Shown here: positions 5,451 to 59,276 of the stretch, piece by piece | Numbering within the stretch: position 1 is the stretch's first letter | Layout of the letters: each line of letters begins with the position of its first letter | Origin: Tetracentron sinense | Taxonomy: Eukaryota; Streptophyta; Magnoliopsida; Trochodendrales; Trochodendraceae | Direction of reading: 5' to 3' | Assembly (NCBI GenBank): GCA_015143295.1 | Contig: CM026566.1 | Span: 7,241,072 to 7,305,071, forward strand | DNA length: 64,000 nucleotides | Translations under genes and position numbers: made by a program | The notes under the pieces: model-generated | Seen by the model: the letters and a program-made list of their open reading frames with translations, nothing else | The model's database searches: none | Told to the model about the DNA's origin: nothing

Positions 5451-5454
5451 ACCT

Positions 5455-23123: not shown

Positions 23124-23314
23124 GGATGAACAACGATGCCCTAGATGAGAAATTCAACCTATACGCAAGAAAACGTACAAGGCTTACCTTTTTGATGCTT
23201 GGGAAACCCTTAGAGTTGAATGGAATGACCGTAGGAAGGATTTGGAGGAGAGGTAACCGAGAGATCGCTCTGGAGTTCGGAGAAGAAGTGAACAAAAAAA
23301 AATAGAAATGAGGG

Positions 23315-23372
23315 TTTTATAACTCTGTTCACGAAAGACCGATCGATCTGTCTTTAACACCAAGCGATCGGT
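23315..23372 (-). promoter_or_regulatory. Putative internal promoter of the third ORF (two boxes plus TATA)
   Basis: Reading minus: ACCGATCGCTTGGT (23372-23359), ACAGATCGATCGGT (23351-23338), 16 bp, then TATAAAA (23321-23315), about 190 bp before the third-ORF ATG. The boxes are the same type as in the LTR U3 module. Copy C has the same layout (41587-41645). A promoter role is inferred from this arrangement. Confidence 0.5.
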
Positions 23373-24473: not shown

Positions 24474-27400
24474 TTAATTAAAGAAAAAAATAGCTCTATG
24501 ACACAAATAGAACATGAAGAACACATAGGCTATGAAACAAGTATATCTGTACTCAACTCCGCACAAACCTATGGATTTCCTAAGGAGTTCAAACCTAAGG
24601 GAATCTAAGGGTTTTGTAAGAATGCCCGCATATTGATTCTCTGTTTGGACATACTCTATAGACACAATCTTTTGCTCAACAAGATCACGGATGAAGTGAT
24701 GTCTAATGTCTATGTGCTTTGTGCGAGAATGTTGAACGGGATTTTTGGAAATATTGATAGCACTTGAATTATCACAATACACAGTCATAGTGCTTTGTTC
24801 AATCCCGTAATCATTCAACATCTGCTTCATCCACAGAAGTTGAGTGCAACAACTGCCAGCTGCTATGTACTCAGCTTCTGCAGTGGACAAAGAAATTGAA
24901 TTATGCTTTTTGCTAAGCCAAGCAACTAAGCAGTTTCCAATATAGAAACATCCTCCAGAGGTGCTCTTCCTATCATCAGCATTTCCGGCCCAATCGGCAT
25001 CGGAATATCCAACTATCGTGGCATTTGTATCAAAAGAATACAAGAGGCCAAATGATAGAGTTCCACTCACATATCGAATGATACGCTTAACTGCAAGCAA
25101 GTGAGACTCTTTTGGGCTCGCTTGATAGCGGGCATAGGCACCAACACTAAAGGCTATGTCAGGTCTAGTAGCAGTTAGGTAGAGTAAACTACCAATCATG
25201 CTTCTATAAGAAGTTTGATCAACATCTTTACCTGAAGCATCTTTACTAAGTTTTGTAGTAGAACTCATAGGAGTCCTTACATGCTTAGCAGAGCTCATGC
25301 CAAATTTCTTCACTAGATTTTTAGCATATTTGATTTGAGATACTGAGATCCCAGAATCCAATTGCTTGATCTGAAGACCAAGGAAGAAACTTAGCTCACC
25401 AACCATGCTCATTTCAAATTCATTTTTCATTTGTTCAGCAAATGAAAGAGCATGTAAGTCTAATGTGGAACCAAACACTATGTCATCAACATATATCTGG
25501 GCGATGACAATATCACCTATCACCTTTCACATTCTTTATGAAAAGGGTTCTGTCTACTCCCCCTCTCGAAAATCCGTTTTCCAAGAGATAAGTAGTCAGC
25601 CTCTCATACCAAGCTCTTGGAGCTTGCTTTAAACCATAGAGGGCCCTTTTTAGCCGATAGACTTGATCAAGGTGATGTGGATCTTCAAACCCTTTTGGTT
25701 GTTCCACATAGACTTCCTCCTGTAGAATGCCATTCAGAAAGGCACTCTTAACATCCATTTGAAAAAGTTTGAATTTCATATGGCAAGCCACAGCTAGAAG
25801 AATTCTTATTGATTCTAGCCTGGCTACAGGAGCAAAGGTTTCATCGAAGTCAATACCTTCAATTTGGGTGTATCCTTGTGCAACTAACCTAGCCTTATTT
25901 CTTATGATAGTACCTTTTTCATCAGATTTGTTCTTGAAAATCCATTTGGTACCAATCACATTTGTATTGTTAGGCCTAGGTACTAAATACCAAACATCAT
26001 TCCTAGTAAACTGAAATAACTCTTCTTGCATTGCATTTATCCAATTATCATCTGCAAGAGCTTCAGCTACATTCTTGGGTTCAAAAGATGAAGTATAGCA
26101 AATGTAGCTAACTTCATTTTCAATTTGTTTCCTCGTTCTCACTCCACTTTCAAGATCACCAATTATGTCAGTGGGGGTGTGAGGACTCATGAGCCTAGAA
26201 TGTGTAGGTTTTGATGGAGATGATTGCTTATTTATAGGTGGAGTTGAAACAATTTCAACATTTTCATTTTCAGCACTTTCATCATCCTCAAGTTGCACAT
26301 TTTCAACACCGGAGTCATCCACAACTACATTTATGGACTCCATAATCGTAGAGGTTCTCAAGTTATACACTCGATAAGCTCTACTGTTGGTGGAATATCC
26401 AAGAAATATCCCTTCATCACTCCGGGATTCAAATTTCCTCAGTTGCTCTCTATCCTTAAGGATATAGCATTTACTTCCGAATTCTCGAAAGTACTTGACA
26501 CTGGGTTTCTTGTTATTCCACAACTCATATGGGGTTTTCCTTGTTCCAGGTCTTACAAAAACTCTATTAACTATATAGCAAGCAGTGTTAACTGCCTCAG
26601 CCCAGAAATGAGAAGCTAGATTGTTGCTATGAAGCATAACTCTAGCCATCTCTTGGAGAACCCTGTTCTTCCTCTCTACTACACCATTCTGCTGAGGTGT
26701 AATAGGTGCAGAAAATTCATGTTTGATACCCGACTCATCACAAAAGTCGTTGTACTTAGAGTTTTCAAACTCCTTTCCATGATCACTTCGAATTCGAGTG
26801 ATTGGGCATCTTTTCTCATTTTGAATTTTCAGGCAAATACTTTTGAAATTGTCAAAAGCATCGGATTTCTCTCTTATAAATGCCACCCATGACATTCTTG
26901 AGAAATCATCAACCATGACTAGGATGTATCGCTTTCCACCTAGACTTTCAATTCTTGTAGGACCCATTAGATCCATATGAATTAATTCCAGTGGATATGA
27001 AGTAGCAATACTTGAAGTCTTCTTATGTGGGGTTCTAATTTGTTTACCAATTTGGCATGGCCCACACACAGCAGTAGAAGGCTTTCCTAGTTTGAGAACA
27101 CCTCTTACAAGCTCTTGCTTAGAGATTTTACATAGGTCTTTGAAGTTCATGTGACCTAGTCTTCGGTGCCACAAATGAACCTCCTCAATTTTAGTCTTAT
27201 AACAGATATTTGAGGGATTAGGACTGGGAATTAAGTCGTAGCAATTGTCAGTGGTTCTCAACCCTTCTAGAACACACTTACCTTTACCATTAATGACTAA
27301 GCATTTATTTTGGGTAAAGTGCACAGCATGGTTATCATCACATAGTTGACTTATGCTAATTAAATTAGCTTTCAGTCCTTCAACAAACAAGCCATCTTTC

Positions 27401-27834
27401 AATTTTGGTATGCCTGGTGAATTGATGATACCCTTCCCCTTTACTAAAGACTTGCTTCCATCACCAAAAGTAACAGTCCCATCTGGACAGTCCTCAAATT
27501 GAGTAAATAAGGACTTGTTACCTGTCATATGCCGAGAACACCCACTATCGAAGTACCACATTTCTATGTTTTGGGCTTTCAAGGCAGTGTGAATGCCGAA
27601 GCACTTAAGGTCATCCTTTCTTACATACACAGTCTTTAAACCTTCTTTAGATCTTTGATCATTAAATTGTGTCTTGGAAACCTTTTTCCTTTTTGTCCTC
27701 CTTAACCTTTTCCTATTTTGTTCAGTTCTAGCTTTTTGAATAGTCAAATTCTTTCCTCTTGAATAATCATTTGGAATAAATTGACCAGTTCTTGTCATAG
27801 AGATTTGAGCAATTCTATTAACATCTTCGCTCAA
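24474..27834 (-). pseudogene. Copia-1 copy A pol: protease, integrase, RT, RNase H
   Basis: Protease has [13 protein letters not shown] (about 27560-27525). The pre-integrase zinc region is [18 protein letters not shown]. Integrase D-D-E lies in [18 protein letters not shown] and [10 protein letters not shown] has [11 protein letters not shown] and catalytic YVDDIVF (about 25500-25480). RNase H has YSDADWAG, TAEAEYIAAGS, YCDNSSAI and KHIDIRHHFI. One frame runs from 27834 (continuing from Gag, no ATG) to 25513. There a 7-bp direct duplication (ggtgata) shifts the frame, and the rest continues to 24474. The normal terminal TAA (as in copy C at 40406-40408) is TAC here, adding 22 codons. One repair-sized lesion separates it from an open pol. 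Confidence 0.9.
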
Positions 27835-28303
27835 TATTCTAGACTTTTCAGCCAGAACTTGAATCTGCCTTTGAAGAATCCCTTGACTTTGATTTTAGTT
27901 CCATGAACCATTTTGGGGAGCTCTCCTAAAAGCATTACAATTTGGTAGAATGTGACCTCTTACACCACAAAAGTGACATGTGGGTATGAATCTTTGGAGA
28001 GGAGGATTTCTTCTAAAAGGAATTTGATTCCTCATAGCATTCACTCTAGGAGCTGTATTTCTAGGCTTTACAAAATTTGTATAAGCCTTAGTACTTGATG
28101 TAGAAGGTAGATTCACTTTAGGATCAGAATGTATTGGCTCAAACACTGCACTAGCCATTGTACCAACAGCTAAAGGACCAGCTGGTGTGTCAGCATTGTC
28201 CTATCCCAGATCTACTCGAATTTGACCCATACTTTCTAACTAATTCATCTAGGCAGCTAGTGTTACCAAACATTCTTACTTCTTTTTCAAGAGTATTGAC
28301 CTT
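27835..28303 (-). pseudogene. Copia-1 copy A gag-pol linker with second zinc knuckle
   Basis: Continues Gag: VYTLEKEV-like segment, FGNTSCLDELVRKYGS, ASAVFEPIHSDPK, then CHFCGVRGHILPNC (about 27990-27950), a second CCHC knuckle. Lesions: a stop at 28304-28306 (Gln codon in copies C and E), a +1 insertion near 28202, and TAA at 27895-27897 (Gln in C and E). Confidence 0.82.
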
Positions 28304-29869
28304 CTAAATCAAGTCAGTCTTGTCTTTAAGGGTAATTTGATGTTCTTTTTCAAGAAATTTCACCTTATCAACAAGAGAGTCTTTAAAAGTTTCCAGCTCC
28401 ATTTGCAGAGTTCTTAACTCTTCAATTTCTTTCATGGAAGTGTCTCTTTCAACTTCTAATTTTCTGACCACATTAGTCAATGAGACATTCTCTTCCAAAA
28501 GACATTGAACTTTCACAACAAATGCTTCTTTTTCATTTTCCAACTGACTAACTAGAGCACTCTTCTCTTCTGCTACTAGTTTACAAGTATCTCTTTCATT
28601 TTGAATGATTTTGAGTTTTTTGCTCAAGGAGATTTTTGTTTTAGTCAGCTTCAAACTTTCAGCATATAACTTATCATAAGTTGTTTTCAAATCTTCATCA
28701 CTTTCAGAGTCAGTTTGACTCTTCTGTATGTCATCACTAGACTCAGTATGAACACTCTCATCACTTCTATCCTTTTCATCAACCGCAGAGGTAGTCTCAA
28801 GAATCCCAGAAAGGGAAACAGTGAAAGCCGTATGATTTCCAGTATCTTCACTTGAAGAGGAACTGTCCGATTCTTCATTCTCGGAATCACTGTCATCCCA
28901 ACAGGTATTCATCACTTTGCCCTTACTCTTCTTCTTGTTGGGGCAGTTAGGTGAAATATGACCGAAGCCATGACATTCATAACATTGAACACCTTGGGAT
29001 TTCTTGTCGCCACTTTTGGAATTTTTCTTGTTTTCACAGGGCTTAGACTTTGACTTCTCAAAATATTTTCCTCCCTGTTTGGGATTGAACCTCTTTTTCG
29101 TTCTAAAAATTTTTTGAAATTTTTTAACGAAGAGAGCCATTTCTTCCTCATTCATATCTCCATCACTGTCATCCTCATCCAAAGATTCCTTGATGGATTT
29201 CAAGGCTAAAGATTTGTTCTTCTTGGATGGACGGAGATTGAGTTCATAGGTTTGGAGTGAACCAACCAATTCCTCAATCTTTAGAGAGTCAACATTTTGA
29301 CTCTCTTCGATTGTAGTGACTTTGGGTTGAAATCTCTCAGGGAGAGATCTAAGGACTTTTCTAACTATTTTGGACTCAGATATTTTCTCACCAAAATTGA
29401 AACTAGCGTTGACAATGTCACTAAGTTTTGCATAGAATTCATCAAAAGTGTCATTGTCATCCATGTTTAAATGTTCAAATTTGGTGGTTAACATTTGGAG
29501 TTTTGAGATTTTAACAGTGGTAGTACCCTCATGGGTAATTTCAAGAATGTCCCAAGCCTCCTTTGCTGTTTCACATGAAGAAATTCGTCTGAATTCCTCA
29601 GCAGTGACTGCAGTAAAGATAGCATTGAGACCTTTAGTGTTCCATCCACTTGACTCAAGCTCTTCTCTGGTCCATTCATCATAATATTTGACGACAGTCA
29701 AATCACCTACAGTTTTTATGGGCGTAGTCCACCCATTCTGTATAGACATCCAGATTCTCTCGTCAATAGATTTGAGAAAGGCTCTCATTCTAGCTTTCCA
29801 GTATGCATAATTATTCCCATCAAAATGTGGGGGACGAGAGACGGATCCACATTCTCTTAGAGTACTCAT
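28304..29869 (-). CDS. Copia-1 copy A Gag, N-terminal 521 residues
   Basis: ATG at 29869 (M-S-T-L-R-E) was chosen because copies C and E start there; two codons upstream another ATG (29875) is in frame. Gag_pre/UBN2-type core: FDGNNYAYWKARMRAFL, ETAKEAWDILE, KISKLQMLTTKFEHL, RSLPERFQPKV. First zinc knuckle CYECHGFGHISPNC is at about 28985-28940. It is followed by an acidic Ser-rich stretch (DSDSENEESDSSSSSED) and about 150 residues of coiled coil (LYAESLKLTKTKISLSKK, EEKSALVSQLENEKEAF). The long coiled-coil extension is typical of SIRE Gag. The frame ends at a premature stop, so this is a truncated Gag. Confidence 0.85.
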   Translation of the reverse strand: MSTLRECGSVSRPPHFDGNNYAYWKARMRAFLKSIDERIWMSIQNGWTTPIKTVGDLTVVKYYDEWTREELESSGWNTKGLNAIFTAVTAEEFRRISSCETAKEAWDILEITHEGTTTVKISKLQMLTTKFEHLNMDDNDTFDEFYAKLSDIVNASFNFGEKISESKIVRKVLRSLPERFQPKVTTIEESQNVDSLKIEELVGSLQTYELNLRPSKKNKSLALKSIKESLDEDDSDGDMNEEEMALFVKKFQKIFRTKKRFNPKQGGKYFEKSKSKPCENKKNSKSGDKKSQGVQCYECHGFGHISPNCPNKKKSKGKVMNTCWDDSDSENEESDSSSSSEDTGNHTAFTVSLSGILETTSAVDEKDRSDESVHTESSDDIQKSQTDSESDEDLKTTYDKLYAESLKLTKTKISLSKKLKIIQNERDTCKLVAEEKSALVSQLENEKEAFVVKVQCLLEENVSLTNVVRKLEVERDTSMKEIEELRTLQMELETFKDSLVDKVKFLEKEHQITLKDKTDLI

Positions 29870-29922
29870 GATCATGGATAATACATGATCACACTTAAGG
29901 GATTAGCCTTATCAGTGAACAA

Positions 29923-29934
29923 GCTTTGATACCA
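29923..29934 (-). other. Copia-1 copy A primer binding site (tRNA-iMet type)
   Basis: Minus strand TGGTATCAAAGC lies two bases after the 5' LTR end. The usual form TGGTATCAGAGC is present in copies C, D and E, so copy A has one substitution. Confidence 0.85.
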
Positions 29935-29936
29935 AT

Positions 29937-31157
29937 TGAAATTTATCCAGATCAATGATCTCTAAGACCTAGATGGGGGGTGAATAGGTCTATGTAATAA
30001 TTTCTAACCAATTTTAATTTTTCAATTAATATGTTTAGAAATCAATGAACAATTCACTCAGACAATCCACACAAATCAAACACAGAAGATTTTTACGTGG
30101 AAAACCCTAACGGGAAAAACCACGGGACCTCGTCCAGCAATAAACTTCACTATGAAAAGATTTTAAGTACAAGACAAGACCTTACCAAAACAGAAACGAC
30201 GTTCCTAGGTATAGACTCTTACTCTTGATTTCCACGAACCAGCAGGTTCGATCTCCGCCGTAGCAGCTTCGGTTCCACACCGACCAAATCTTCTCAAGCT
30301 ACTTCAAAACCACGATCACACACAATCGATCTCCTTCCACGAAGGCTCCGGATCAAACACCGGACACACACACAAGGTGTAGGATTGTGAATCAATTTGG
30401 AAGTTTCAAACCCTAGAGGGATCTCATATAGATCTGAGATCACACAATGCAAGATCAAAGGTTTAGATCTATACTTGCATTCTCTAGGATCAAAGAAAGA
30501 GGAGGGATCAACAAAGATCTAATAAGAACAATAGGAAAAACCTTAGAAGAGTTTCTCAGACCTCTACTCTTTCAAAAATAAAACAAAGATACGAATTAGG
30601 TCTCCAAAAAGTTGTTTATATAGGGTTTAAAAAAGGAATCCAGAAAAATAAAAATTCTTTTTACGGGGACCGATCGATCGGTGCACATTACCGATCGCTC
30701 GGTCCAAAACGGATCGATCGGTGCTCATAACCGATCGAGCGGTTGAAAATCATCTCTCTGGAAAAATACCCCATACAAATTATTTGTCCAGTCGATAGCC
30801 ACCGATCGCTCGGTAGGCCACCGATCAATCGGTCTCAACACCGAGCGATCGGTTGAGACAGAATTTGTTTCAAACCATACTTCATTTTAAGTTTACTTGA
30901 TTCAACTAAGATCAAACAACTTTATTAGGTTTAAAACTATCCTCCTAGGTATGTTTAGAGTTATCTAAGTCAAATCCAACCTAGGTAGGGGTCTCTAAGT
31001 CCATTACCTTTCTAGATCCAGAGTAGGAGCTTTTTCTTCACTTTCTTCAATCTTCTTGATGCTTTAGCTCTTCTCTTCTGACAAGTTGAACACGACTCGA
31101 CTCACATGACCTATCTAATGATCACAGAATTCGCCAACACCTACTTAGGGACTTACA
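29937..31157 (-). repeat. Copia-1 copy A 5' LTR, 1221 bp
   Basis: Plus strand TGAAATTTATCC to AGGGACTTACA, followed by the target duplication AATAC. A TATA box is read on minus at 30622-30615, downstream of the U3 box module. Confidence 0.92.
30669..30853 (-). promoter_or_regulatory. U3 box module, copy A 5' LTR (185 bp)
   Basis: Same eight-box layout as in the 3' LTR, for example ACCGATCGATCGGT (30669), ACCGATCGCTCGGT, ACCGATCGAGCGGT, spacer, then ACCGATCGCTCGGT, ACCGATCAATCGGT and ACCGAGCGATCGGT. The TATA box lies about 46 bp beyond it in the sense direction. Confidence 0.78.
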
Positions 31158-33804: not shown

Positions 33805-35033
33805 TGTAAATCCCTAAATAGGTGTTGGCAAATTCCGTGATCATTAGATAGGTCATGTGAGTCGAGTCGTCGAGTTATGTTCAACTTGTCAGAAGAGAAG
33901 AGCTAAAGCTTAAAGAAGATTGAAGAAAGAGAAGAAAAAGCTTCTACTCTGGATCTAGACAGGTAATGGACTTAGAGACCCCTACCTAGGTTGGTTTTGG
34001 CTTAGATAACTCTAAACATACCTAGGAGGATAGTTTTAAACCTAACAAAGTTGTTTGATCTTAATTGAATCAAATAAACATGAAAAGACATATGGTTTGA
34101 ACAAAATTCTGTCTCAACCGATCACTCGGTATTGGGACCAATTGATCGGTGGCCTACCGAGCGATCGGTGGCTATCGACTGGACAAAAAGTTTGTATGGG
34201 ATATTTTTCCAGAGAGATGATTTATAACCGAGCGATCGGTCATTTGGACCGAGCGATCCGTTTTGGACCGAGCGATCGCTAGTGAGCACCGATCGCTCGG
34301 TCCCCGTAAAAAGAATTTTTCTTTTTCTGGATTCTTTTTTTTAAACCCTATATAAACAACTTTTTGGAGACCTAATTCGTGTCTTTGATATTTTTGAATG
34401 AGTAGAGGTCTGAGAAACTCTTCTAGGGTTTTTCTTATTGCTTTTATTAGATCTTTGTTGATCCCTCCTCTTTCTTTGATTCTAGAGAATGCAAGTATAG
34501 ATCTAAACCTTTGATCTTGCATTGTGTGATCTCAAATCTGTATGAGATCCCTCTAGGGTTTGAAATTTCTAAATTGATTCACAACCCTACACCTTGTGTG
34601 TGTGTCCGGTGTTTGATCCGGAGCCTTCGTGGAAGGAGATCGATCGTGTGTGATCGTGGTTTTGAAGTAGCTTGAAAAGATTTGGTCGGTGTGGAACCGA
34701 ATCTGCTACGGCGGAGATCGAACCTGCTGGTTCGTGAAAATCAAGAGTAAGAGTCTATACCTAGGAACGTCGTTTCTGTTTTGGTAAGGTCTTGTCTTGT
34801 ACTTGATATCTTTTCATAGTGAAGTTTATTGCTGGACAAGGTCCCGTGGTTTTTTCCCGTTAGGGTTTTCCACGTAAAAATCTTCTGTGTTTGATTTGTG
34901 TGGATTTTCTTATTGAATTGTTCATTGATTTCTAAACATATTAATTGAAAAATTAAAATTGGTTAGAAATTATTAGATAGACCTATTCACCCCCCCTCTA
35001 GGTCTTAGAGATCATTGATCTGGATAAATTTCA
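33805..35033 (+). repeat. Copia-1 copy C 5' LTR, 1229 bp
   Basis: TGTAAATCCC to GGATAAATTTCA. TATATAAA at 34349-34356 lies 48 bp after the U3 box module. Confidence 0.9.
34117..34301 (+). promoter_or_regulatory. U3 box module, copy C 5' LTR (185 bp)
   Basis: Boxes in order: ACCGATCACTCGGT, ACCAATTGATCGGT, ACCGAGCGATCGGT, degenerate GGCTATCGACTGG, spacer 'aaagtttgtatggga' plus 'ttttccagagag', ACCGAGCGATCGGT, ACCGAGCGATCCGT, ACCGAGCGATCGCT, ACCGATCGCTCGGT. Length and box order match the chromovirus LTR block exactly. Confidence 0.8.
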
Positions 35034-41586: not shown

Positions 41587-41645
41587 ACCGATCGCTCGGT
41601 GTTAAAGACCGATCGATTCGGTCTTTCGTGAACAGAGTTATAAAA
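41587..41645 (+). promoter_or_regulatory. Putative internal promoter of third ORF, copy C
   Basis: ACCGATCGCTCGGT (41587-41600), a second box with one extra base (41608-41622), then TATAAAA at 41639-41645, about 190 bp before the third-ORF ATG (41834). Same layout as copy A. Confidence 0.5.
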
Positions 41646-41833
41646 CCCTCATTTCTATTTTTTCTGTTCACTTCTTCTCCGACTCCAGAGCGATCTCTCG
41701 GTTACCTCTCCTCCAAATCCTTCCTACGGTCATTCCATTCGACTCTAAGGGGTTTCCCAAGCATCAAAAAGGTAAGCCTTGTCGTTTTCGTGCGTATAGT
41801 TGAATTCTCATCTAGGGCATCGTCTAGTAATCC

Positions 41834-44271: not shown

Positions 44272-45492
44272 TGAAATTTATCCAGATCAATGATCTCTAA
44301 GACCTAGATGGGGGGTGAATAGGTCTATCTAATAATTTCTAACCAATTTTAATTTTTCAATTAATATGTTTAGAAATCAATGAACAATTCACTCAGACAA
44401 TCCACACAAATCAAACACAGAAGATTTTTACGTGGAAAACCCTAACGGGAAAAACCACGGGACCTCGTCCAGCAATAAACTTCACTATGAAAAGATTTTA
44501 AGTACAAGACAAGACCTTACCAAAACAGAAACGACGTTCCTAGGTATAGACTTTTACTCTTGATTTCCACGAACCAGTAGGTTCGATCTCCGCCGTAGCA
44601 GCTTCGGTTCCACACCGACCAAATCTTCTCAAGCTACTTCAAAACCACGATCACACACAATCGATCTCCTTCCACGAAGGCTCCGGATCAAACACCGGAC
44701 ACACACACAAGGTGTAGGATTGTGAATCAATTTGAAAGTTTCAAACCCTAGAGGGATCTCATATAGATCTGAGATCACACAATGCAAGATCAAAGGTTTA
44801 GATCTATACTTGCATTCTCTAGGATCAAAGAAAGAGGAGGGATCAACAAAGATCTAATAAGAACAATAGGAAAAACCCTAGAAGAGTTTCTCAGACCTCT
44901 ACTCTTTCAAAAATAAAACAAAGATACGAATTAGGTCTCCAAAAAGCTGTTTATATAGGGTTTAAAAAAGGAATCCAGAAAAATAAAAATTCTTTTTACG
45001 GGGACCGATCGATCAGTGCACATTACCGATCGCTCGGTCCAAAACGGATCGATCGGTGCTCATAACCGATCAAGCGGTTGAAAATCATCTCTCTGGAAAA
45101 ATACCCCATACAAATTATTTGTCCAGTCGATAGCCACCGATCGCTCGGTAGGCCACCGATCAATCGGTCTCAACACCGAGCGATCGGTTGAGACAGAATT
45201 TGTTTCAAACCATACTTCATTTTAAGTTTACTTGATTCAACTAAGATCAAACAACTTTATTAGGTTTAAAACTATCCTCCTAGGTATGTTTAGAGTTATC
45301 TAAGTCAAATCCAACCTAGGTAGGGGTCTCTAAGTCCATTACCTTTCTAGATCCAGAGTAGGAGCTTTTTCTTCACTTTCTTCAATCTTCTTGATGCTTT
45401 AGCTCTTCTCTTCTGACAAGTTGAACACGACTCGACTCACATGACCTATCTAATGATCACAGAATTCGCCAACACCTACTTAGGGATTTACA
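44272..45492 (-). repeat. Copia-1 copy D 5' LTR, 1221 bp
   Basis: Almost identical to the copy A 5' LTR (29937-31157) and of equal length, with a few substitutions such as 'gatcagtgc' for 'gatcggtgc' in the first box. Confidence 0.9.
45004..45188 (-). promoter_or_regulatory. U3 box module, copy D LTR (185 bp)
   Basis: Same eight-box block as copy A, with single-base changes in two boxes (ACCGATCGATCAGT, ACCGATCAAGCGGT). Confidence 0.75.
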
Positions 45493-47650: not shown

Positions 47651-47948
47651 TGTCGCGACCCAAAACCCACCCTAGGAGTTAGAGTGAATCTTGGACGACT
47701 CAATCATGACTTACATGACTTGCTTGACAAACCAACCTGCAAAAACCACAGAGCATATACAATAGAAGACATTATAGCGGAAACATAACTATAAGACACA
47801 GCGGAAGTCTAACAAACCTCTAAGTATATACATATGGTCCAAGTTTATACAAAAAGTAACCAGAAGAAAGTGCGGACAGACCCGCCAAAATACATGGATA
47901 TAATCTCTCATCTCACCCACAGCTAATCCACTCAGAATCTACAACCAC

Positions 47949-48062
47949 CTAATGGTAACTCTCTACTGGAGGTTCCTCAAAAGGCTCCTCGACGTACTCC
48001 TCCTCCACCCATGGACTCGGAGCACAGATATCAAATGGAGCAGCTGCTCCGCCGTCACCTGC
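47949..48062 (-). other. Conserved micro-ORF in chromovirus LTR
   Basis: Minus strand after a possible 3' splice site (gtcggcag) reads AAAPFDICAPSPWVEEEY and continues acidic to TAG at 47951-47949. The solo LTR encodes the same peptide with about five amino-acid changes and about five silent changes, no indels. A hairpin GCTGAG..CTCAGC lies just upstream. The second LTR has the same at 55496-55609. Confidence 0.35.
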
Positions 48063-48407
48063 CGACATAAGAAGTACGGCTGAGCATGGAATACTCAGCG
48101 GGTACTAAGCACTAACCAGTAGTCATAGCATACAGATAGCATACATAAAGGAGGAAGCAAGTTGCATATATAGAACATGAACAATTCATATCATACAAGG
48201 AAGCAAAACAATTTATAATCATGCTTGTATTTCGTAGAAAGCCGATGAAACCTCTTGAAAACATCGTGCACTTGACTTGACTTGAAAATACCATTTCCGT
48301 GCTTGAAACTTGTTATGTTGTCTTATCTTGTCATATCATGCGTGTCATGTCATGTCATGCGTGTCATGCGAGTATCATGCTTGCTTGTTCATAATTTAAA
48401 CATGTTC

Positions 48408-48622
48408 ACATGCCTAGTTGCCGTTCATAGTCCGTCACAACTAGTACCCTATATGCAGATGGGTATGCCTAGTTGCCGTTCATAGCCCGTCGCAACTAGC
48501 ATCCATGCAGAATGTGAATGCCTAGTTGCCGTTCATAGCCCGTCGCAACTAGCATCCATGCAGAATGTGAATGCCTAGTTGCCGTTCATAGCCCGTCGCA
48601 ACTAGCATCCATGCAGAATGTG
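48408..48622. repeat. Tandem repeat, four 53-bp units, chromovirus 3' LTR
   Basis: Unit begins ATGCCTAGTTGCCGTTCATA and ends with 'catgcagaatgtga'. Three units are nearly identical and the first is divergent. Short 'tgctatgcgtgtca' repeats follow. The same array is in the other LTR at 55955-56169. Confidence 0.85.
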
Positions 48623-49628
48623 TGATGCTATGTTATGCGTGTCATGCCATGCTATGCTATGCGTGTCATGCGATGCTATGCATGTCATGCGAGGGGATGG
48701 GAGACCTTTTCCTATGCAATGCATGATTGTCTTGCCCTTGTCAAAAGCGAAGTGAAACATATCTTAGGATATGCCCCACCTCTACATCCCATACTCAAAA
48801 CATCGGTAAATCACGTCATTTCATGCGTGCTCGTGAGATCGTGTGCATACTTGCATTTGGAATTAAATATGGCAATTTGGGGTAATTCACAAAGCATAGC
48901 ATATAACAATTTAAGTGAGTAATAATCTACGCATTTTAAGAAATGTAAGAAACACACTATCATGAACCCTAACAAATTTCAAGAGCAATTAAGCATGAGT
49001 TCCCTTAATTTATCATTTATTTTGTTCACCTTGGCATTTCATCAAACATGAGGTGTGTTCATTATTCACTTAAACTTAGATCATGATTTCCTAGGTGGGT
49101 TATGCTCACATCACACTTGTATGTTCATTATTAATACAATGCCCTTTCCCATTCATTCATCATATCATCCACACGGCATCCATTCGCCAACATCCATCTT
49201 CATTCACCATTCATACCACCAATCTCATAACACATATATAAATGAAGGAAAACAAGAAGAAATAAAGGAAAAGGGAAGCTATAACTAGGAGGGTAGTAAG
49301 AAGTACCGACCTTGATCAAGTGAGGAAGAAATCCCCCTTTTCAAAAGGACCGTGAGTTGTTGCCCTAGCTTGAGGAGAGTGCCCCACACGAGCTTGAGCC
49401 GAGACTTGGAGAAAATAGACTTGAGGATGATCTAGGGTCTCAAACCCCTTTGATTTCTCTTCAAAATGGAAACCCTAGGTTTAGGAAAACCTTCTCCTTT
49501 CTCTCTATCTCTCAAAAGACTCTAAGGGTTGAGAATGAGCCCTAAAGGCTCGGGCAATCCTATATAAGAAAGGGTGTAACACCCGAATGCCGAAAATGCC
49601 CTTAGTGAAAATTCTGTAAAACGCGCGG

Positions 49629-49813
49629 ACCGAGCGATCGGTGGTCATGACCGATCGATCGGTTGCCTACCGAGCGATCGGTGTTTATGACCGATCGACC
49701 GGTCAAAAACTCACTCTCTGGAAAATTTCCCCATACAAACTTTCTGACCGCGCGATAGCTACCGATCGATCGGTTATGGACCGATCGATCGCTGACTGGA
49801 CCGAGCGATCGGT
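49629..49813 (-). promoter_or_regulatory. U3 box module, chromovirus 3' LTR (185 bp)
   Basis: Plus-strand boxes: ACCGAGCGATCGGT, ACCGATCGATCGGT, ACCGAGCGATCGGT, ACCGATCGACCGGT, spacer with 'ctctggaaaatttcccc' and 'atacaaact', degenerate ACCGCGCGATAGCT, ACCGATCGATCGGT, ACCGATCGATCGCT, ACCGAGCGATCGGT. In sense direction it lies about 60 bp upstream of the TATA box. Same length, box number, spacer and orientation as in Copia-1 LTRs. Confidence 0.8.
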
Positions 49814-50025
49814 TCTCTGTATGTCTGGACTGTTTTGACCATATCTTTTGACTCGCTTGTCGGATTTCGACGATTCAACTTGCGTTGGGTTCGTCTTTCG
49901 AAAACGCACATTTCTGACGTTTCGGAATTTTCGATTTCTCCCTTATTTATCAATTAGACTACAAAAATGGCCAATTAGCTACGAAGGTGCTATTCATTAA
50001 GGATGAAAAAGTCCGGGGTGCTACA

Positions 50026-50039
50026 TTCTCCCCCCCTTA
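50026..50039 (-). other. Chromovirus polypurine tract
   Basis: Minus strand TAAGGGGGGGAGAA immediately precedes the LTR start TGTAGCACCCC. Confidence 0.85.
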
Positions 50040-50117
50040 CAAAAATTTCGTCCCCGAAATTTGGACGATACATACATGCACAAAATCAAAACAAAATTAC
50101 AAGCCATATGCACAAGT

Positions 50118-53100
50118 CTATTCAAACAACTCGGGATACTTTGCTTTGACTTCGGCTTCACGCTCCCACGTGGCTTCTTCTCGGGCATGATGTTGCCATT
50201 GCACGAGAACCAAAGGGATTGTCTTGTTGCGAAGCACTTGATCTCTCCGATCCAATATGTGAATCGGCTTCTCAACCAACGTGAGATCTTCTCGAATTTC
50301 CAACGGCTCCAATTCTAGTACATGCGAAGGGTCCGCAATGTACTTCCGAAGCATAGACACGTGGAAAACGTTGTGAACCGCGGCCATGTGAGGTGGAAGA
50401 GCTACTCGATAAGCAACTTCACCAACCCGCGTGATAATCTCAAACGGTCCAACATAGCGAGGACTAAGCTTGCCTCTTTTGCCGAATCTCATAATCCCTT
50501 TGCTAGGAGATACTTTCACAAAGACTCGATCCCCTACTTGAAATTCCAAGTCCCTGCGGCGCGTGTCTGCATAGCTCTTTTGGCGATCTTGAGCGGCTTT
50601 CAACCGATCCCGGATGATCTTGACTATACTAGTAGTTTGCTCAATCAACTCCGGACCAAGTACTTTTCTTTCTCCTACCTCATCCCAATAGAGAGGAGAC
50701 CTACAACTTCGCCCATACAAGGCCTCAAATGGTGCCATTTGGATACTTGCCTGATAGCTGTTATTGTAGGCGAATTCAACCAAAGGCAAATGCTCTTCCC
50801 AACTGCCTCTGAAATCCATCATACAAGCCCGAAGCATGTCTTCAATGACTTGGTTCACTCTCTCGGTTTGTCCATCTGTCTGTGGATGAAAAGCGGTGCT
50901 GAAATCGAGTCGGGAACCCATAGCTTCCTGAAAGCTTTTCCAGAATCGTGATGTGAATCTTGGATCCCGATCCGACACAATACTGACAGGCACTCCGTGC
51001 AACCTCACCACTTCCTTGATGTACAAAGCAGCTAACTGACTAGAGTTGAAAGTAGTTCGGTAAGGCAAGAAGTGAGCGGACTTTGTCAAACGATCCACTA
51101 CTACCCATATCGCATCTGAACCCCTTGCCGTCTTTGGCAAGCCAACTATGAAATCCATGGATATGTTCTCCCATTTCCACTCGGGAATCGGAAGGGACTG
51201 TAATAGACCTGCGGGCCGCATGTGTTCTGCTTTCACCTGTTGGCACACCAAGCACCGTGCTACATATTCCGCAACCTCCCTCTTCATATTCCGCCACCAA
51301 AAGTGACTCTTGAGGTTCCGGTACATCTTCGTACCCCCTGGATGCACTGTGTACTTCGAACGGTGTGCTTCATCCAAAATCTCTCTTCGAAGGTCTGCAT
51401 TGGCTGGGACGCACAACCTTCCCTTGAATGTGATAGCACCCCGACTAGTGAGAGAAAAGTCTTCACTGCCCTTGGCAACTTCCTTGTCCCGGAAAGCCAA
51501 CAATTCCGCATCCATGGCTTGATACTCTTGGATCAAATCTATAATGTACGGCCGAACCGTAACATTTGCCAAGGTAGGACCACGGACAGAGTTATTCACA
51601 CTGATGTCCAGATTTGCCAAATCTTCTAGCAGCTTCCATTCTTGAACCAACATGTGTGCTAACAACCCCTGAGGTCTTCTACTCAAAGCATCAGCCACTA
51701 CATTTGCTTTACCCGGGTGGTATTGAATGGTACAATCATAGTCCTTCAGGAATTCCATCCAACGCCGTTGCCTTAGATTCAATTCCTTTTGGGAAAAGAG
51801 GTATTTGAGACTCTTGCGATCCGTATACACATAGAATTCCACCCCGTATAAGTAATGTCGCCAGATCTTGAGCGCAAACACGACAGCGGCAAGCTCTAAG
51901 TCGTGCGTGGGGTAATTCTTCTCATGCTCCTTCAATTGCCTCGATGCATAGGCAATGACCTTCTTGTGTTGCATAAGCACACATCCAAGTCCAACGTGTG
52001 AGGCATCACTGTACACCTCATACCCAAGAGGTCCAGATGGTACTGTAAGGACAGGAGCTGTAGTAAGCCTCTTCTTCAGTTCCGTGAAACTGATCTCACA
52101 CTTGTCGCTCCAAACAAACTTCGCATTCTTCCTTGTCAGGTGAGTAAGTGGTGCTGCAAGGCTAGAGAAACCCTCTACGAATCTCCTGTAGTAGCCTGCC
52201 AGCCCAAGAAAGCTGCGTATCTCAGTAACACTCTTGGGCCTCGCCCAACTCATAACAGCTTCTATCTTCTTCGGATCAACAGAGATGCCTTCCGCAGAAA
52301 CAACGTGGCCTAGGAATGCCACTTCTTCCAACCAAAACTCACACTTGCTAATTTTGGCGTATAGCTTGTGCTCTCTTAACATTTCCAATGCAAGGCGAAG
52401 GTCGCGTATGTGATCTTCCCGGTTCTGGGAATAGACCAAAATGTCATCAACAAATACAATCACGCACCGATCTAGGTATGGTCTGAACACCCGGTTCATC
52501 AAATCCATAAAGGCTGCCGGCGCGTTCGTGAGACCAAAAGGCATCACTAAGAACTCATAGTGCCCATATCGAGTCCTGAAAGCAGTTTTGGAAACATCTT
52601 CCACCTTAATCTTCAATTGGTGATAACCCGATCGAAGATCTATCTTTGAGAAAAATCTTGCTCCCTTCAACTGATCGAACAAGTCGTCAATCCTAGGCAA
52701 TGGATACCTATTCTTTATAGTGACTTTGTTCAGTTGCCGGTAATCGACACACATCCGCATCGAGCCATCTTTCTTCTTAACAAACAACACTGGGGCACCC
52801 CACGGTGAGACACTTGGTCGAATGAAGCCAAGGCTTTGTAATTCTTCCAACTGAGTCTTTAACTCTTTGAGTTCAATAGGGGCCATTCTATACGGAGCCC
52901 TGCAAACAGGAGCTGTGCCTGGTGCAAGCTCGATCATAAACTCAATCTCCCTGTCTGGAGGCAATCCCGGCAACTCCTCTGGAAATACATCCAGGAACTC
53001 ACTCACAACCGGAATAGTTGATGAGTCCTTTGCCTCGGGGTTAGCTACGCCCAACGTCGCAAAACGAGCAATGGATCTGCTTTTCAACCCGCGAAAGTGG

Positions 53101-53443
53101 AATGGTTTTCCTTCTACTGGCTTGAAGAGTACCATTTTCTCAAAGCAAGCTACATGCCCATGATGTGCTGCTAACCAATCCATTCCCAAAATAACATCAA
53201 AGTCTTGGAATCCAAGGACGATGAGATCAACCGCCAACTCGTGGCTTCCAACTTGGACCACACCATTTCTATACACTTTATCTGCCAATACTGTTTTGCC
53301 AAGAGGAGTCGAAATGGATAACTCCGGTTCCAGCTGACTTGGCTCCCCAGAAAAGCCTTCTGAAAAAATCGGCGAGACAAACGAATGAGTAGACCCGGTA
53401 TCAATCAACACTCGAGCCAAATACTCATTGACTAGTAGGGTTC
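50118..53443 (-). CDS. Chromovirus Pol: protease, RT, RNase H, integrase, chromodomain
   Basis: An open frame of about 1,107 codons to 50118 with no ATG near its start: 53443 is the inferred exon start (GAACCC, giving [11 protein letters not shown]). Protease [10 protein letters not shown] follows at once. RT has [10 protein letters not shown] and FVDDILVYS (about 52455-52429). RNase H has [21 protein letters not shown] and YTDRKSL. The integrase zinc region is [14 protein letters not shown]; its D-D-E lies in SMDFIVG (about 51160), SDRDPRF (50970) and GQTERVN (50863). A GPF-type module (YVGPFEII) follows. The last 60 residues ([36 protein letters not shown]) form a chromodomain-like tail as in the Tekay/Del clade, used to target chromatin. 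Probably expressed only after splicing to gag. Confidence 0.93.
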
Positions 53444-53587
53444 CTGAAATTTTAGCTAGTTACGTCAATTCAAGCCTCAACAGTGTATACACGTAAGTAA
53501 ATATATATATAGCATACCAACTACGTACACGAGGAATAAAACATAACACAACAATCACGAATAAGGAAAATAACTCCTAACGCGTAC
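53444..53587 (-). other. Putative 144-bp intron between gag and pol
   Basis: Donor CAAG|GTACGC at 53588/53587, acceptor TTTCAG|GAACCC at 53444/53443 (minus). Interior is AT-rich with a branch-like 'gctaaaat'. Removal joins codons to read [20 protein letters not shown], the uninterrupted sequence expected for this family. Unspliced RNA gives Gag-G-T-R-stop. The length is a multiple of three, but the in-frame TAG prevents read-through translation. Confidence 0.78.
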
Positions 53588-54836
53588 CTTGCACCACATC
53601 GTCAGATGCAAGTGCATCACCCTCTGTCAAGGCAAAAACTCGCCCCTGGTTCACCTGGCGAGACTGAGGTGTAGACCGGGTAGTCTGAGATGACGCCTGA
53701 TATGATCCTGCTGGGCGTGCTGGTGGCCTAATCCCCTGAGACTGGCCTGGTAAATGCCGGGTAGGGCAATCCCTGATCACGTGGCCCTGGCGACCACAGT
53801 GAAAACATCCACCCGATGCTCTTAGGCAATCCCCAGCTGGGTGCCGTCGGCCGCATGAAGGGCAGGCCTCGTGTGTGCGGGTAGGAGGGGCCTGAGGTGG
53901 AGCATATCTCGCCACCTGAGGTGCAACTGGCCATGGGGCCGGGAGAGCCTGAGGTCGAGGTGCCTGTGGCACGTACTGCCGTGGTGCTGGGGCCGTATAA
54001 GTCGGCCTCATCGGTGGTGCTGGCCATGTATACTGATAAGGGCCGGTACGATTCCGCCTCTCTGGAGGTGCTGAACTACTGGCTTGGCCTCTCGCCAACT
54101 CTCTCTTCTTAGACACTGCTTCAGAATTGGCCTCAACCAATAAGGCCTTATCCACTACTTCGGCGTAAGTGGCGTGCCTGAAAACTGACACTTTCTCCAT
54201 GATGACATCCTTGAGCCCTTGCTCAAACCTCCTCGCCTTCATTGCCTCGGTGGCAATCATGTGTGTCGCGAAGCGTGATAGCTCCGAGAACTTGGCCTCA
54301 TAAGCGGCCACAGACATCGAACCTTGCTCAAGGTTGATGAATTCTCTCTCTTTCTTTTCCCGAGCTCCAACCGGGAAATACTTCTTATAGAACGTGTCCT
54401 TAAACTCCTCCCAAGTCCAAGGTTGACCCTGCATGGTCAAGTCTCGTGTCCTCAATGCGGACAACCACCAATGGTGGGCTTCACCCTCTAGCATGAAAAC
54501 TGCCCATGCTACCCTATCCTCCTCAGTAGGCGAGAGGACCGCAAAAATCTTCTCCATCTGGAGGATCCACGCCTCTGCTGCGAGAGGGTCCACACTCCCA
54601 TGGAAGGATGGAGGCCTCAATCTCCTGAATGCCTCAACTCCAGCTGTACGATGTACTGGAGCTGCGGGCGGTGGAGTAGGTGCCGCTGATGCCGGTATAG
54701 TTTGCCGAGCCGCCAGGATGGCGAGTGTCTCAGCAATAGAGCCTAAGACCTGGGAGAGGTCCGGCTGCTCATCCTCATCTCTGGAAGAAGATGAAGCTCT
54801 GGTGTGTGGTCCACGACCCCGTGTGCCCCGCCTCAT
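53577..54836 (-). CDS. Chromovirus Gag, 419 aa (unspliced form)
   Basis: ATG at 54836, preceded by a short leader. The N-terminus is basic and Ser-rich (MRRGTRGRGPHTRASSSS). A retrotransposon Gag domain covers about residues 85-215 (RRLRPPSFHGSVDPLAAEAW, WWLSALRTRD, FKDTFYKKYFP, YEAKFSELSRFA). A Pro-rich linker follows, then zinc knuckle CFHCGRQGHVIRDC near residue 345, and the tail FALTEGDALASDDVVQG. The last three codons lie inside the intron. It makes the capsid of the intracellular particle and packages RNA. Confidence 0.92.
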   Translation of the reverse strand: MRRGTRGRGPHTRASSSSRDEDEQPDLSQVLGSIAETLAILAARQTIPASAAPTPPPAAPVHRTAGVEAFRRLRPPSFHGSVDPLAAEAWILQMEKIFAVLSPTEEDRVAWAVFMLEGEAHHWWLSALRTRDLTMQGQPWTWEEFKDTFYKKYFPVGAREKKEREFINLEQGSMSVAAYEAKFSELSRFATHMIATEAMKARRFEQGLKDVIMEKVSVFRHATYAEVVDKALLVEANSEAVSKKRELARGQASSSAPPERRNRTGPYQYTWPAPPMRPTYTAPAPRQYVPQAPRPQALPAPWPVAPQVARYAPPQAPPTRTHEACPSCGRRHPAGDCLRASGGCFHCGRQGHVIRDCPTRHLPGQSQGIRPPARPAGSYQASSQTTRSTPQSRQVNQGRVFALTEGDALASDDVVQGTR

Positions 54837-55181
54837 GACTAAAGTCCTGAGAACAATAGCACCACATGAGTCTCACTCGAAACTACAGTTTATTTCCATG
54901 TCATTTCACAATAATTCAATTTGTATTAGTTGTATAATACTAATATACATCACATCAAGTCATCAGAGTATTCTTCACATTATACTTATACTTTAGTGTT
55001 CTAGCGTACCTAGAACCCGTACTTGGTTAAAGCAACCATTTTAGACTAAGACTAAAGTTTAGTCTTAAACTTGGAACCAGACTCGTTCCCGACTCACTTC
55101 CTTCCTAACTTGTTTCCTAACATATGCTCTTGTCAAGCCGTGGTATAAGATTCTAAGTGACCCTAGAGACCTAAAGCCTAA
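54837..55181 (-). other. Chromovirus leader, no gene
   Basis: 345 bp between primer site and gag ATG, AT-rich, without coding content. Presumably holds packaging signals. Confidence 0.6.
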
Positions 55182-55193
55182 GCTTTGATACCA
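55182..55193 (-). other. Chromovirus primer binding site
   Basis: Minus strand TGGTATCAAAGC, four bases after the 5' LTR end, close to the initiator tRNA-Met complement. Confidence 0.8.
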
Positions 55194-55197
55194 CTTC

Positions 55198-57572
55198 TGT
55201 CGCGACCCAAAACCCACCCTAGGAGTTAGAGTGAATCTTGGACGACTCAATCATGACTTACATGACTTGCTTGACAAACCAACCTGCAAAAACCACAGAG
55301 CATATACAATAGAAGACATTATAGCGGAAACATAACTATAAGACACAGCGGAAGTCTAACAAACCTCTAAGTATATACATATGGTCCAAGTTTATACAAA
55401 AAGTAACCAGAAGAAAGTGCGGACAGACCCGCCAAAATACATGGATATAATCTCTCATCTCACCCACAGCTAATCCACTCAGAATCTACAACCACCTAAT
55501 GGTAACTCTCTACTGGAGGTTCCTCAAAAGGCTCCTCGACGTACTCCTCCTCCACCCATGGACTCGGAGCACAGATATCAAATGGAGCAGCTGCTCCGCC
55601 GTCACCTGCCGACATAAGAAGTACGGCTGAGCATGGAATACTCAGCGGGTACTAAGCACTAACCAGTAGTCATAGCATACAGATAGCATACATAAAGGAG
55701 GAAGCAAGTTGCATATATAGAACATGAACAATTCATATCATACAAGGAAGCAAAACAATTTATAATCATGCTTGTATTTCGTAGAAAGCCGATGAAACCT
55801 CTTGAAAACATCGTGCACTTGACTTGACTTGAAAATACCATTTCCGTGCTTGAAACTTGTTATGTTGTCTTATCTTGTCATATCATGCGTGTCATGTCAT
55901 GTCATGCGTGTCATGCGAGTATCATGCTTGCTTGTTCATAATTTAAACATGTTCACATGCCTAGTTGCCGTTCATAGTCCGTCACAACTAGTACCCTATA
56001 TGCAGATGGGTATGCCTAGTTGCCGTTCATAGCCCGTCGCAACTAGCATCCATGCAGAATGTGAATGCCTAGTTGCCGTTCATAGCCCGTCGCAACTAGC
56101 ATCCATGCAGAATGTGAATGCCTAGTTGCCGTTCATAGCCCGTCGCAACTAGCATCCATGCAGAATGTGTGATGCTATGTTATGCGTGTCATGCCATGCT
56201 ATGCTATGCGTGTCATGCGATGCTATGCATGTCATGCGAGGGGATGGGAGACCTTTTCCTATGCAATGCATGATTGTCTTGCCCTTGTCAAAAGCGAAGT
56301 GAAACATATCTTAGGATATGCCCCACCTCTACATCCCATACTCAAAACATCGGTAAATCACGTCATTTCATGCGTGCTCGTGAGATCGTGTGCATACTTG
56401 CATTTGGAATTAAATATGGCAATTTGGGGTAATTCACAAAGCATAGCATATAACAATTTAAGTGAGTAATAATCTACGCATTTTAAGAAATGTAAGAAAC
56501 ACACTATCATGAACCCTAACAAATTTCAAGAGCAATTAAGCATGAGTTCCCTTAATTTATCATTTATTTTGTTCACCTTGGCATTTCATCAAACATGAGG
56601 TGTGTTCATTATTCACTTAAACTTAGATCATGATTTCCTAGGTGGGTTATGCTCACATCACACTTGTATGTTCATTATTAATACAATGCCCTTTCCCATT
56701 CATTCATCATATCATCCACACGGCATCCATTCGCCAACATCCATCTTCATTCACCATTCATACCACCAATCTCATAACACATATATAAATGAAGGAAAAC
56801 AAGAAGAAATAAAGGAAAAGGGAAGCTATAACTAGGAGGGTAGTAAGAAGTACCGACCTTGATCAAGTGAGGAAGAAATCCCCCTTTTCAAAAGGACCGT
56901 GAGTTGTTGCCCTAGCTTGAGGAGAGTGCCCCACACGAGCTTGAGCCGAGACTTGGAGAAAATAGACTTGAGGATGATCTAGGGTCTCAAACCCCTTTGA
57001 TTTCTCTTCAAAATGGAAACCCTAGGTTTAGGAAAACCTTCTCCTTTCTCTCTATCTCTCAAAAGACTCTAAGGGTTGAGAATGAGCCCTAAAGGCTCGG
57101 GCAATCCTATATAAGAAAGGGTGTAACACCCGAATGCCGAAAATGCCCTTAGTGAAAATTCTGTAAAACGCGCGGACCGAGCGATCGGTGGTCATGACCG
57201 ATCGATCGGTTGCCTACCGAGCGATCGGTGTTTATGACCGATCGACCGGTCAAAAACTCACTCTCTGGAAAATTTCCCCATACAAACTTTCTGACCGCGC
57301 GATAGCTACCGATCGATCGGTTATGGACCGATCGATCGCTGACTGGACCGAGCGATCGGTTCTCTGTATGTCTGGACTGTTTTGACCATATCTTTTGACT
57401 CGCTTGTCGGATTTCGACGATTCAACTTGCGTTGGGTTCGTCTTTCGAAAACGCACATTTCTGACGTTTCGGAATTTTCGATTTCTCCCTTATTTATCAA
57501 TTAGACTACAAAAATGGCCAATTAGCTACGAAGGTGCTATTCATTAAGGATGAAAAAGTCCGGGGTGCTACA
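55198..57572 (-). repeat. Chromovirus 5' LTR, 2375 bp
   Basis: Constant offset of 7,547 bp from the 3' LTR along its full length, with the same sequence wherever compared. Sense transcription would start downstream of a TATA box at 57115-57108 (minus). Confidence 0.95.
57176..57360 (-). promoter_or_regulatory. U3 box module, chromovirus 5' LTR (185 bp)
   Basis: Identical to 49629-49813. This is the copy that would drive the element. Confidence 0.8.
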
Positions 57573-58066: not shown

Positions 58067-59276
58067 TGTAAATCCCTAAATAGGTGTTGGCAAATTCCGT
58101 GATCATTAGATAGGTCATGTGAGTCGAGTCGTCGAGTTATGTTCAACTTGTCAGAAGAGAAGAGCTAAAGCTTAAAGAAGATTGAAGAAAGAGAAGAAAA
58201 AGCTTCTACTCTGGATCTAGACAGGTAATGGACTTAGAGACCCCTACCTAGGTTGGTTTTGGCTTAGATAACTCTAAACATACCTAGGAGGATAGTTTTA
58301 AACCTAACAAAGTTGTTTGATCTTAATTGAATCAAATAAACATGAAAAGACATATGGTTTGAACAAAATTCTGTCTCAACCGATCACTCGGTATTGGGAC
58401 CAATCGATCGGTGGCTATCGACTGGACAAAAAGTTTGTATGGGATATTTTTCCAGAGAGATGATTTATAACCGAGCGATCGGTCATTTGGACCGAGCGAT
58501 CCGTTTTGGACCGAGCGATCGCTAGTGAGCACCGATCGCTCGGTCCCCGTAAAAAGAATTTTTCTTTTTCTGGATTCTTTTTTTTAAACCCTATATAAAC
58601 AACTTTTTGGAGACCTAATTCGTGTCTTTGATATTTTTGAATGAGTAGAGGTCTGAGAAATTCTTCTAGGGTTTTTCTTATTGCTTTTATTAGATCTTTG
58701 TTGATCCCTCCTCTTTCTTTGATTCTAGAGAATGCAAGTATAGATCTAAACCTTTGATCTTGCATTGTATGATCTCAAATCTGTATGAGATCCCTCTAGG
58801 GTTTGAAATTTCTAAATTGATTCACAACCCTACACCTTGTGTGTGTGTCCGGTGTTTGATCCGGAGCCTTCGTGGAAGGAGATCGATCGTGTGTGATCGT
58901 GGTTTTGAAGTAGCTTGAAAAGATTTGGTCGGTGTGGAACCGAAGCTGCTACGGCGGAGATCGAACCTGCTGGTTCGTGGAAATCAAGAGTAAGAGTCTA
59001 TACCTAGGAACGTCGTTTCTGTTTTGGTAAGTTCTTGTCTTGTACTTGATATCTTTTCATAGTGAAGTTTATTGCTGGACAAGGTCCCGTGGTTTTTTCC
59101 CGTTAGGGTTTTCCACGTAAAAATCTTCTGTGTTTGATTTGTGTGGATTTTCTGATTGAATTGTTCATTGATTTCTAAACATATTAATTGAAAAATTAAA
59201 ATTGGTTAGAAATTATTAGATAGACCTATTCACCCCCCCTCTAGGTCTTAGAGATCATTGATCTGGATAAATTTCA
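58067..59276 (+). repeat. Copia-1 copy E 5' LTR, 1210 bp
   Basis: TGTAAATCCC to AAATTTCA. 19 bp shorter than copy C because one U3 box with its linker is missing. Confidence 0.92.
58379..58544 (+). promoter_or_regulatory. U3 box module, copy E LTR, one box deleted (166 bp)
   Basis: As copy C, but 19 bp containing one box (GCCTACCGAGCGATCGGTG) are lost, leaving three boxes before the spacer (one degenerate) and four after it. Confidence 0.78.

Follow-up and report, generated by a model that had tools for sequence, protein, structure and literature searches.

The locus described here raises the question of how two LTR retrotransposons of different superfamilies, a Ty3/gypsy chromovirus and a Ty1/copia element, came to carry the same 185-bp module of short palindromic boxes in their LTRs. 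The window, i.e., the whole stretch of 64,000 nucleotides that was analyzed, is rich in LTR retrotransposons and appears plant-like, judged by the elements it contains. The chromovirus (47651..57572, minus strand) is complete and Tekay/Del-like, with the target site duplication (TSD) AGTTA and LTRs at 47651-50025 and 55198-57572. It comprises gag and pol ORFs with the order protease, RT, RNase H and integrase, a sub-threshold chromodomain (Chromo match of 21.0 bits, Pfam cut-off 25.1) and an LTR start, TGTAGCACCC, with one mismatch to the Tekay/Del U3 end TGTAACACCC. Both LTRs are identical at 2375/2375 bases and, judged by this identity, the element is a very young, recently active carrier. 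Each of its LTRs also harbors a 53-bp repeat in four copies (48410-48622 and 55957-56169). The Ty1/copia element A (19981..31157, minus strand; TSD AATAC) is complete as well, with gag and pol domains and LTRs at 19981-21211 and 29937-31157 that are 97.5% identical. Copia B, on the plus strand, begins with its 5' LTR at 33805-35033, and the LTRs of A and B share 93.5% identity. A solo LTR of a related chromovirus (5031..7569, plus strand; TSD TATTG) lacks the module. Elsewhere, the window contains a near-palindrome of 163 bp (1096-1258, 82% self-inverse) and, at 1568-2487, a fold-back element that is about 0.9 kb long and has repeats of 31 bp.

Part of the window is present twice. The stretch 29246-39759 recurs at 43559-64000 as a direct copy with an offset of 14.3 kb, with identities of 97.4% and 98.3% over two blocks and of 99.4% over a part of 2111 bases. 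The chromovirus interrupts the second copy and is found in only this one of the two, the first copy representing its empty insertion site. A run of 53 N (43485-43537) lies just ahead of the second copy, near the duplication join. This arrangement may have arisen by a recent tandem duplication, or the assembler may have placed two haplotypes one after the other.

When the whole window was scanned for ACCGATCGATCGGT with up to three mismatches, 54 matches were obtained, compared to 0.78 +/- 0.99 in shuffled sequence, and 54/54 sit in nine clusters, namely seven LTR modules and two internal ones. The first-pass annotation, made from the letters of this stretch, had claimed modules at five places, and they are present at all five: in the 3' LTR of the chromovirus (49629..49813, minus strand; LTR position 213-397, next TATATA at 460) and, as an identical copy, in its 5' LTR (57176..57360, minus strand), in the 5' LTRs of copia A (30669..30853, minus strand; LTR position 305-489, TATATA at 536) and copia B (34117..34301, plus strand), and in the duplicate of the copia A 5' LTR (45004..45188, minus strand). 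Its list was incomplete, however, in that it missed two of the seven LTR clusters, those in the 3' LTR of copia A (20724..20907, minus strand, 184 bp) and in the duplicate of the copia B LTR (58379..58544, plus strand), the second of which lacks 19 bp between the interior of box 2 and that of box 3. Both internal clusters were missed as well. In copia A (23256..23372, minus strand), two boxes 21 bp apart are followed by TATAAA (23316-23321) and by one box with three mismatches, all upstream of an extra ORF, while in copia B (41587..41702, plus strand) the boxes precede an ORF fragment of the PF20167 type (42446-42922). The copies are not all independent, because the modules at 45004 and 58379 duplicate those at 30669 and 34117, and the chromovirus contributes two LTRs of a single insertion; the independent lineages are one copia family (A and B) and one chromovirus.

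The gap between two near-identical copies might suggest that the module owes its distribution to mis-assembly or to a chimeric copy. We regard such an artefact as extremely improbable, since the module occurs in both LTRs of the chromovirus as well as in separate copia LTRs, in each case within an uninterrupted LTR and at a distance from the gap; a mis-assembly of the module itself is ruled out by these contiguous LTRs, by the TSDs of the chromovirus and by its empty site.

Each box is 14 bp long and of the type ACCGA-N4-TCGGT. Eight boxes in a 4 + spacer + 4 layout had been proposed. We find seven clear boxes per module (at most two mismatches) in a 3 + spacer + 4 layout, while the degenerate box noted beside the spacer does exist, with four mismatches to the consensus in the chromovirus and six in copia. 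The seven boxes start at the same module positions in the chromovirus, copia A and copia B (0, 20, 39, 110, 131, 150, and 171), with identical intervals of 20, 19, 71, 21, 19, and 21 bp. The module has the same orientation relative to transcription in both elements, and its end lies 62 bp (chromovirus) or 46 bp (copia A) from the next TATATA. That this orientation agrees had been claimed before and is borne out by alignment: a palindromic module aligns in reverse as well, but more weakly (141 vs. 84 bits for copia A and 123 vs. 72.5 bits for copia B, forward vs. reverse).

Chromovirus and copia modules align free of gaps, with 140/185 identical positions for A and 136/185 for B. In blastn, the chromovirus LTR matches the copia LTRs with E-values of 5e-37 (A) and 1e-31 (B), and outside the module no blastn match between them was better than E 0.36, in agreement with the earlier impression that the LTRs have nothing else in common. 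Identity is unevenly distributed within the module. The boxes agree at 90/98 positions (chromovirus vs. copia A) and the 57-bp centre at 41/57 (A) and 42/57 (B), the latter far beyond anything obtained in 100,000 shuffles each (means 15.5 +/- 3.3 for A and 15.6 for B, maxima 30 and 29). In contrast, the linkers between the boxes agree at the level of shuffles, with 9/30 (A) and 8/30 (B); at least nine matches arose in 12,834/100,000 trials with shuffled linkers, so that the linkers do not add support for homology. Centre and linkers differ with Fisher p-values of 2.4e-4 (A) and 3.4e-5 (B). The spacer word TTTGTATGGGNNANTTTTCCAGAGAG, whose presence on both sides had been noted, is found seven times, with one occurrence in each LTR module (0 expected in the window). 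When the chromovirus centre was compared without gaps to the entire window, the five copia centres scored best apart from the chromovirus itself, and all of them align in register. Similarity limited to simple GATCG repeats with unrelated spacers, named beforehand in the first-pass annotation as the outcome that would speak against its reading, is ruled out by this match of the centre. Judged from these alignments, the module in the chromovirus and in copia is homologous by shared ancestry.

Could selection for one host factor have produced the same box arrays independently, without any transfer? The concentration of identity in the boxes next to unrelated linkers would fit such a convergence, and near-identical boxes are found in Sirevirus families with very divergent LTRs according to the available part of PMC2829016. 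However, neither six identical box intervals nor a non-repetitive 57-bp centre matching at 41-42/57 would be expected, which makes convergence very unlikely. Thus, the proposal that homology of the spacer favors transfer holds, and transfer is better supported than convergence. Selection for the same host factor had been offered as an alternative to transfer, which it is not: both probably apply, because the boxes and the centre have been kept and the linkers have not.

A comparison with the solo LTR reveals the extent of the exchanged segment. The chromovirus LTR aligns with it at chromovirus positions 1-198, 394-1299, and 1647-2375, with identities of 76%, 75%, and 82% in these three main blocks. 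Positions 199-393, which coincide almost exactly with the module at 213-397, stand where the solo LTR has 516 bp that comprise 23-bp and 25-bp tandem arrays (5327-5425 and 5437-5737). The boundaries are sharp, as similarity to the solo LTR reaches box 1 and picks up directly after the last box. Since the related solo LTR possesses different arrays at this place, the module looks like a swapped cassette in the chromovirus LTR. No match better than E 0.38 was obtained between the solo LTR and copia A or B. At the 5' junction, GCTCGGT is common to the solo LTR, the chromovirus and box 1 of copia A, and so is GGTCC after the last box. These words hint at recombination at microhomology, or possibly at chance, since the solo LTR is not the ancestor. 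As a diverged relative (75-82%), it might instead have lost the module that the chromovirus would then not have gained, and GCTCGGT at its 5' junction might be an old box of the chromovirus's own. The 23-bp units of the solo LTR contain the inverted words CGTTGT...ACAACG and form palindrome arrays of another kind.

Copia A, on the other side of the comparison, looks like a Sirevirus, a group for which PMC2829016 describes a polypurine tract with an AT/TG junction, repeats of this tract in the linker, a box cluster ahead of the LTR TATA and boxes ahead of the extra ORF. Upstream of its LTR start TG it carries the polypurine tract AGGGGGAG (21214-21221, minus strand) followed by AT; this word occurs 10 times in the window (1.72 expected), with three strand-matched occurrences in the copia A linker (21214, 21559, and 23413) and a fourth on the same strand inside pol (25557). 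Copia A has the seven LTR boxes, the TATATA 46 bp downstream of them and three internal boxes with a TATAAA. Its coding part comprises a copia gag, an integrase ahead of RT and an ORF after pol. The extra ORF (21834..23123, minus strand; 429 aa) lies downstream of pol and matches PF20167 'Transposase_32' (Pfam E 1.2e-27), while no other Pfam family was found for it at E-values up to 10. Two boxes, the TATAAA and a possible splice donor (AAAAAG/GTAAGCC) ahead of this ORF make it look like a transcription unit of its own. Furthermore, the linker of the internal boxes, GTTAAAG, resembles the linker between LTR boxes 1 and 2 of copia A (GTTGAG), unlike the chromovirus linker CCAGTC, which suggests that the boxes have long been resident in copia. 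No ORF of the PF20167 type was detected among the chromovirus ORFs scanned. Two of these points go beyond the first-pass annotation: boxes like those of copia have been described in the LTRs of Sireviruses, and the related solo LTR marks the exchanged segment.

The direction of transfer, for which we argue by parsimony, would thus be from a Sirevirus to the chromovirus, because the copia boxes are found both in the LTRs and ahead of the extra ORF, and a relative of the chromovirus lacks the module. The reverse, from chromovirus to copia, or an origin of both from a third source such as a host promoter or another transposon, is unlikely but deserves consideration. Only two families were seen; over seven boxes, mismatches to the symmetric consensus number 5 in the chromovirus, 6 in copia A and 11 in copia B; and the related chromovirus represented by the solo LTR has repeat arrays at the same place. 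These points are set against the relative without the module and against the copia boxes at the promoter of the extra ORF, which correspond to the Sirevirus layout (available part of PMC2829016).

The linkers also bear on the age of the event. As they match at chance (9/30), the exchange would be old or would involve a Sirevirus family that is not represented here. Of the earlier idea that one family captured the promoter module of another, the transfer stands, while this chance-level identity disfavors a simple and recent capture with the copia elements seen here as the source. Between copia A and B (30669-30853 and 34117-34301), the inter-box linkers differ at 8/30 positions, compared to about 6.5% over the LTRs on average (binomial p 5e-4); either the evolution of linkers may be rapid, or the boxes may have been shuffled. 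With evidence from one recipient family in one window, we consider it the best and, on balance, a probable explanation that the module is a cis-regulatory cassette of the Sirevirus kind, which an ancestor of the chromovirus would have gained through recombination with a Sirevirus LTR and which would be bound by a dimeric factor acting on the TATA. This recombination would have placed the cassette where the related chromovirus has its own tandem arrays, and its source would probably be a relative of copia A and B, but a separate Sirevirus family.

What the cassette might do can be approached through variation among 35 boxes from five modules, which are not independent of each other. Positions 1, 10, 11, and 14 are invariant in 35/35 boxes and the letters of the half-sites are nearly fixed. 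At position 6 only T and G occur and at position 9 only A and C, but never were both changed in one box: the dyad pair 6-9 is kept in 17/35 boxes and broken in 18/35, always on one side and without a compensating change. The linkers in turn are fixed in length in the chromovirus, the copia A 5' LTR and copia B, while their sequence is free. The module is furthermore rich in CpG. Observed/expected values are 1.78 in the chromovirus module (1.53 in the 207 bp upstream and 0.63 in the 1973 bp downstream), 1.75 vs. 0.62 in copia A, 1.59 vs. 0.66 in copia B and 0.99 vs. 0.60 for the array of the solo LTR, at 0.52 for the window.

Palindromes might also act as RNA or as cruciforms, with hairpins in 3' LTR transcripts that give rise to small RNAs or control the RNA itself. 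In fact, the two modules tested are predicted to fold much more stably than shuffled sequence (z -7.46 and -5.74). In maize, small RNAs are reported to be drawn to the palindrome clusters of Sireviruses (Bousios et al., 2016, as cited in PMC10760457). However, the two modules are predicted to take different shapes. The observations fit a dimer on ACCGA half-sites better than RNA hairpins, because the pair 6-9 is broken without compensation, and because a fixed linker length combined with free sequence suits spacing along DNA; we therefore rate an RNA-based or cruciform function as unlikely. Likeliest is that the module provides, upstream of a TATA, phased predicted sites for a factor that binds DNA as a dimer. 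Such a factor would recognize the inverted half-sites ACCGA...TCGGT of each box, neighboring boxes, spaced 19-21 bp or about two helical turns apart, might be bound cooperatively, and the centre might be bound by a further factor. The bound factors would drive transcription from the TATA 46-62 bp downstream, or keep it open, and in the Sirevirus the same boxes would also stand on the internal promoter of the extra ORF. The core site of CBF/DREB factors is RCCGAC. They are disfavored as binders, as ACCGAC is found in 0/70 half-sites (ACCGAT 40, ACCGAG 18, others 12).

One might speculate that the boxes are putative sites of the Sirevirus's own PF20167 protein, which, as a counterpart of VANC, would activate or de-silence box-bearing DNA including its own promoter; the chromovirus with its acquired module would then ride in trans, as a parasite of a parasite. 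We consider this idea unlikely, and it is opposed by 4 of the 13 Sireviruses with repeated motifs (RMs) in PMC2829016, which have LTR boxes but no extra ORF. The PF20167 domain has also been reported in an extra ORF of Athila, with a predicted nuclear location (PMC11728184). A search for relatives of the ORF gave 5101 candidates in the protein collection, none of them at E 0.001, and 0 matches at E 1 among PDB sequences; its single-sequence AlphaFold model was unusable (pLDDT 38.5). In IMG/VR, the box pattern gave 41 stretches with one site each on both strands, which we take as chance, and the spacer pattern 0; for relatives of the copia pol and chromovirus pol ORFs, 8 and 5 pattern stretches were obtained, none of which was confirmed.

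If it is true that a complete promoter module passes between families and serves a recently active element, the evolution of transposon promoters would be partly modular and would cross lineages. In that case, elements sharing the module may have tissue, stress response and silencing fate in common. The function of the Sirevirus boxes would become more testable too, as any explanation would have to account for both of two unrelated LTR contexts. Our comparison suggests that genomic parasites of distant families can acquire control switches from one another.

How does this fit to known systems? In the open-access literature, mostly titles and beginnings of abstracts, we saw no report of an LTR module common to Ty1/copia and Ty3/gypsy, and the letters of the box gave 0 hits. 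The copia side corresponds to a known kind, the RMs of Sireviruses, which form LTR box clusters and stand ahead of the extra ORF as well (Bousios et al., 2010; PMC2829016, as far as available, also for the following). Likewise, the boxes described here are palindromic with CGG/CCG triplets, form a CpG-rich cluster upstream of the LTR TATA and recur just upstream of the extra ('ENV') ORF. Unlike in the RMs, the triplets run CCG...CGG and CGG...CCG arises only across linkers, while the published signature is CGG-CCG, a core present in 12/13 listed RMs (Tnd-1 lacks it). Consequently, we file the copia boxes as RM-like, outside the CGG-CCG class; our box matches none of the 13 RMs in the list of PMC2829016. 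The second difference is that the whole module together with its spacer is also found in a Ty3/gypsy LTR. RMs were called Sirevirus-specific by comparison with classic Ty1/copia elements, and the three passages on gypsy found in PMC2829016 contain no survey of gypsy LTRs. On the chromovirus side, the plastic 5' CpG islands of Del/Tekay elements (Cruz et al., 2014; PMC4029996) resemble the module as a CpG-rich and fast-changing segment in the 5' half of the LTR. They are variable and absent from eudicots among the genomes studied there, and the text contains neither 'palindrom' nor 'tandem repeat' and mentions Sirevirus once.

Likenesses extend to transposons of other kinds, of which VANDALs, being DNA transposons, are one example. 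They carry the VANC anti-silencing system, a type defined by an element-encoded protein that binds the motif and removes methylation. In these, short motifs cluster in the non-coding DNA of a transposon with an extra gene, and VANC6 motifs are also found in AT9TSD1, which is unrelated to VANDAL and responds in trans (PMC5735166 and PMC10398659, accessible parts). This is a likeness of arrangement, and we do not claim a relation of motif or protein. The maize palindrome CACCGGACNNNGTCCGGTG is common to structured regions of Copia and Helitron elements, i.e., unrelated kinds of transposons (PMC10760457). There, a single motif is reported as shared, compared to an entire module including layout and spacer in the present case. 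Within these sources, this palindrome and the variable Del CpG islands (PMC4029996) are the nearest precedents we saw. The boxes of copia are thus of a known, RM-like kind; the surprise is the complete module in the LTR of a chromovirus.
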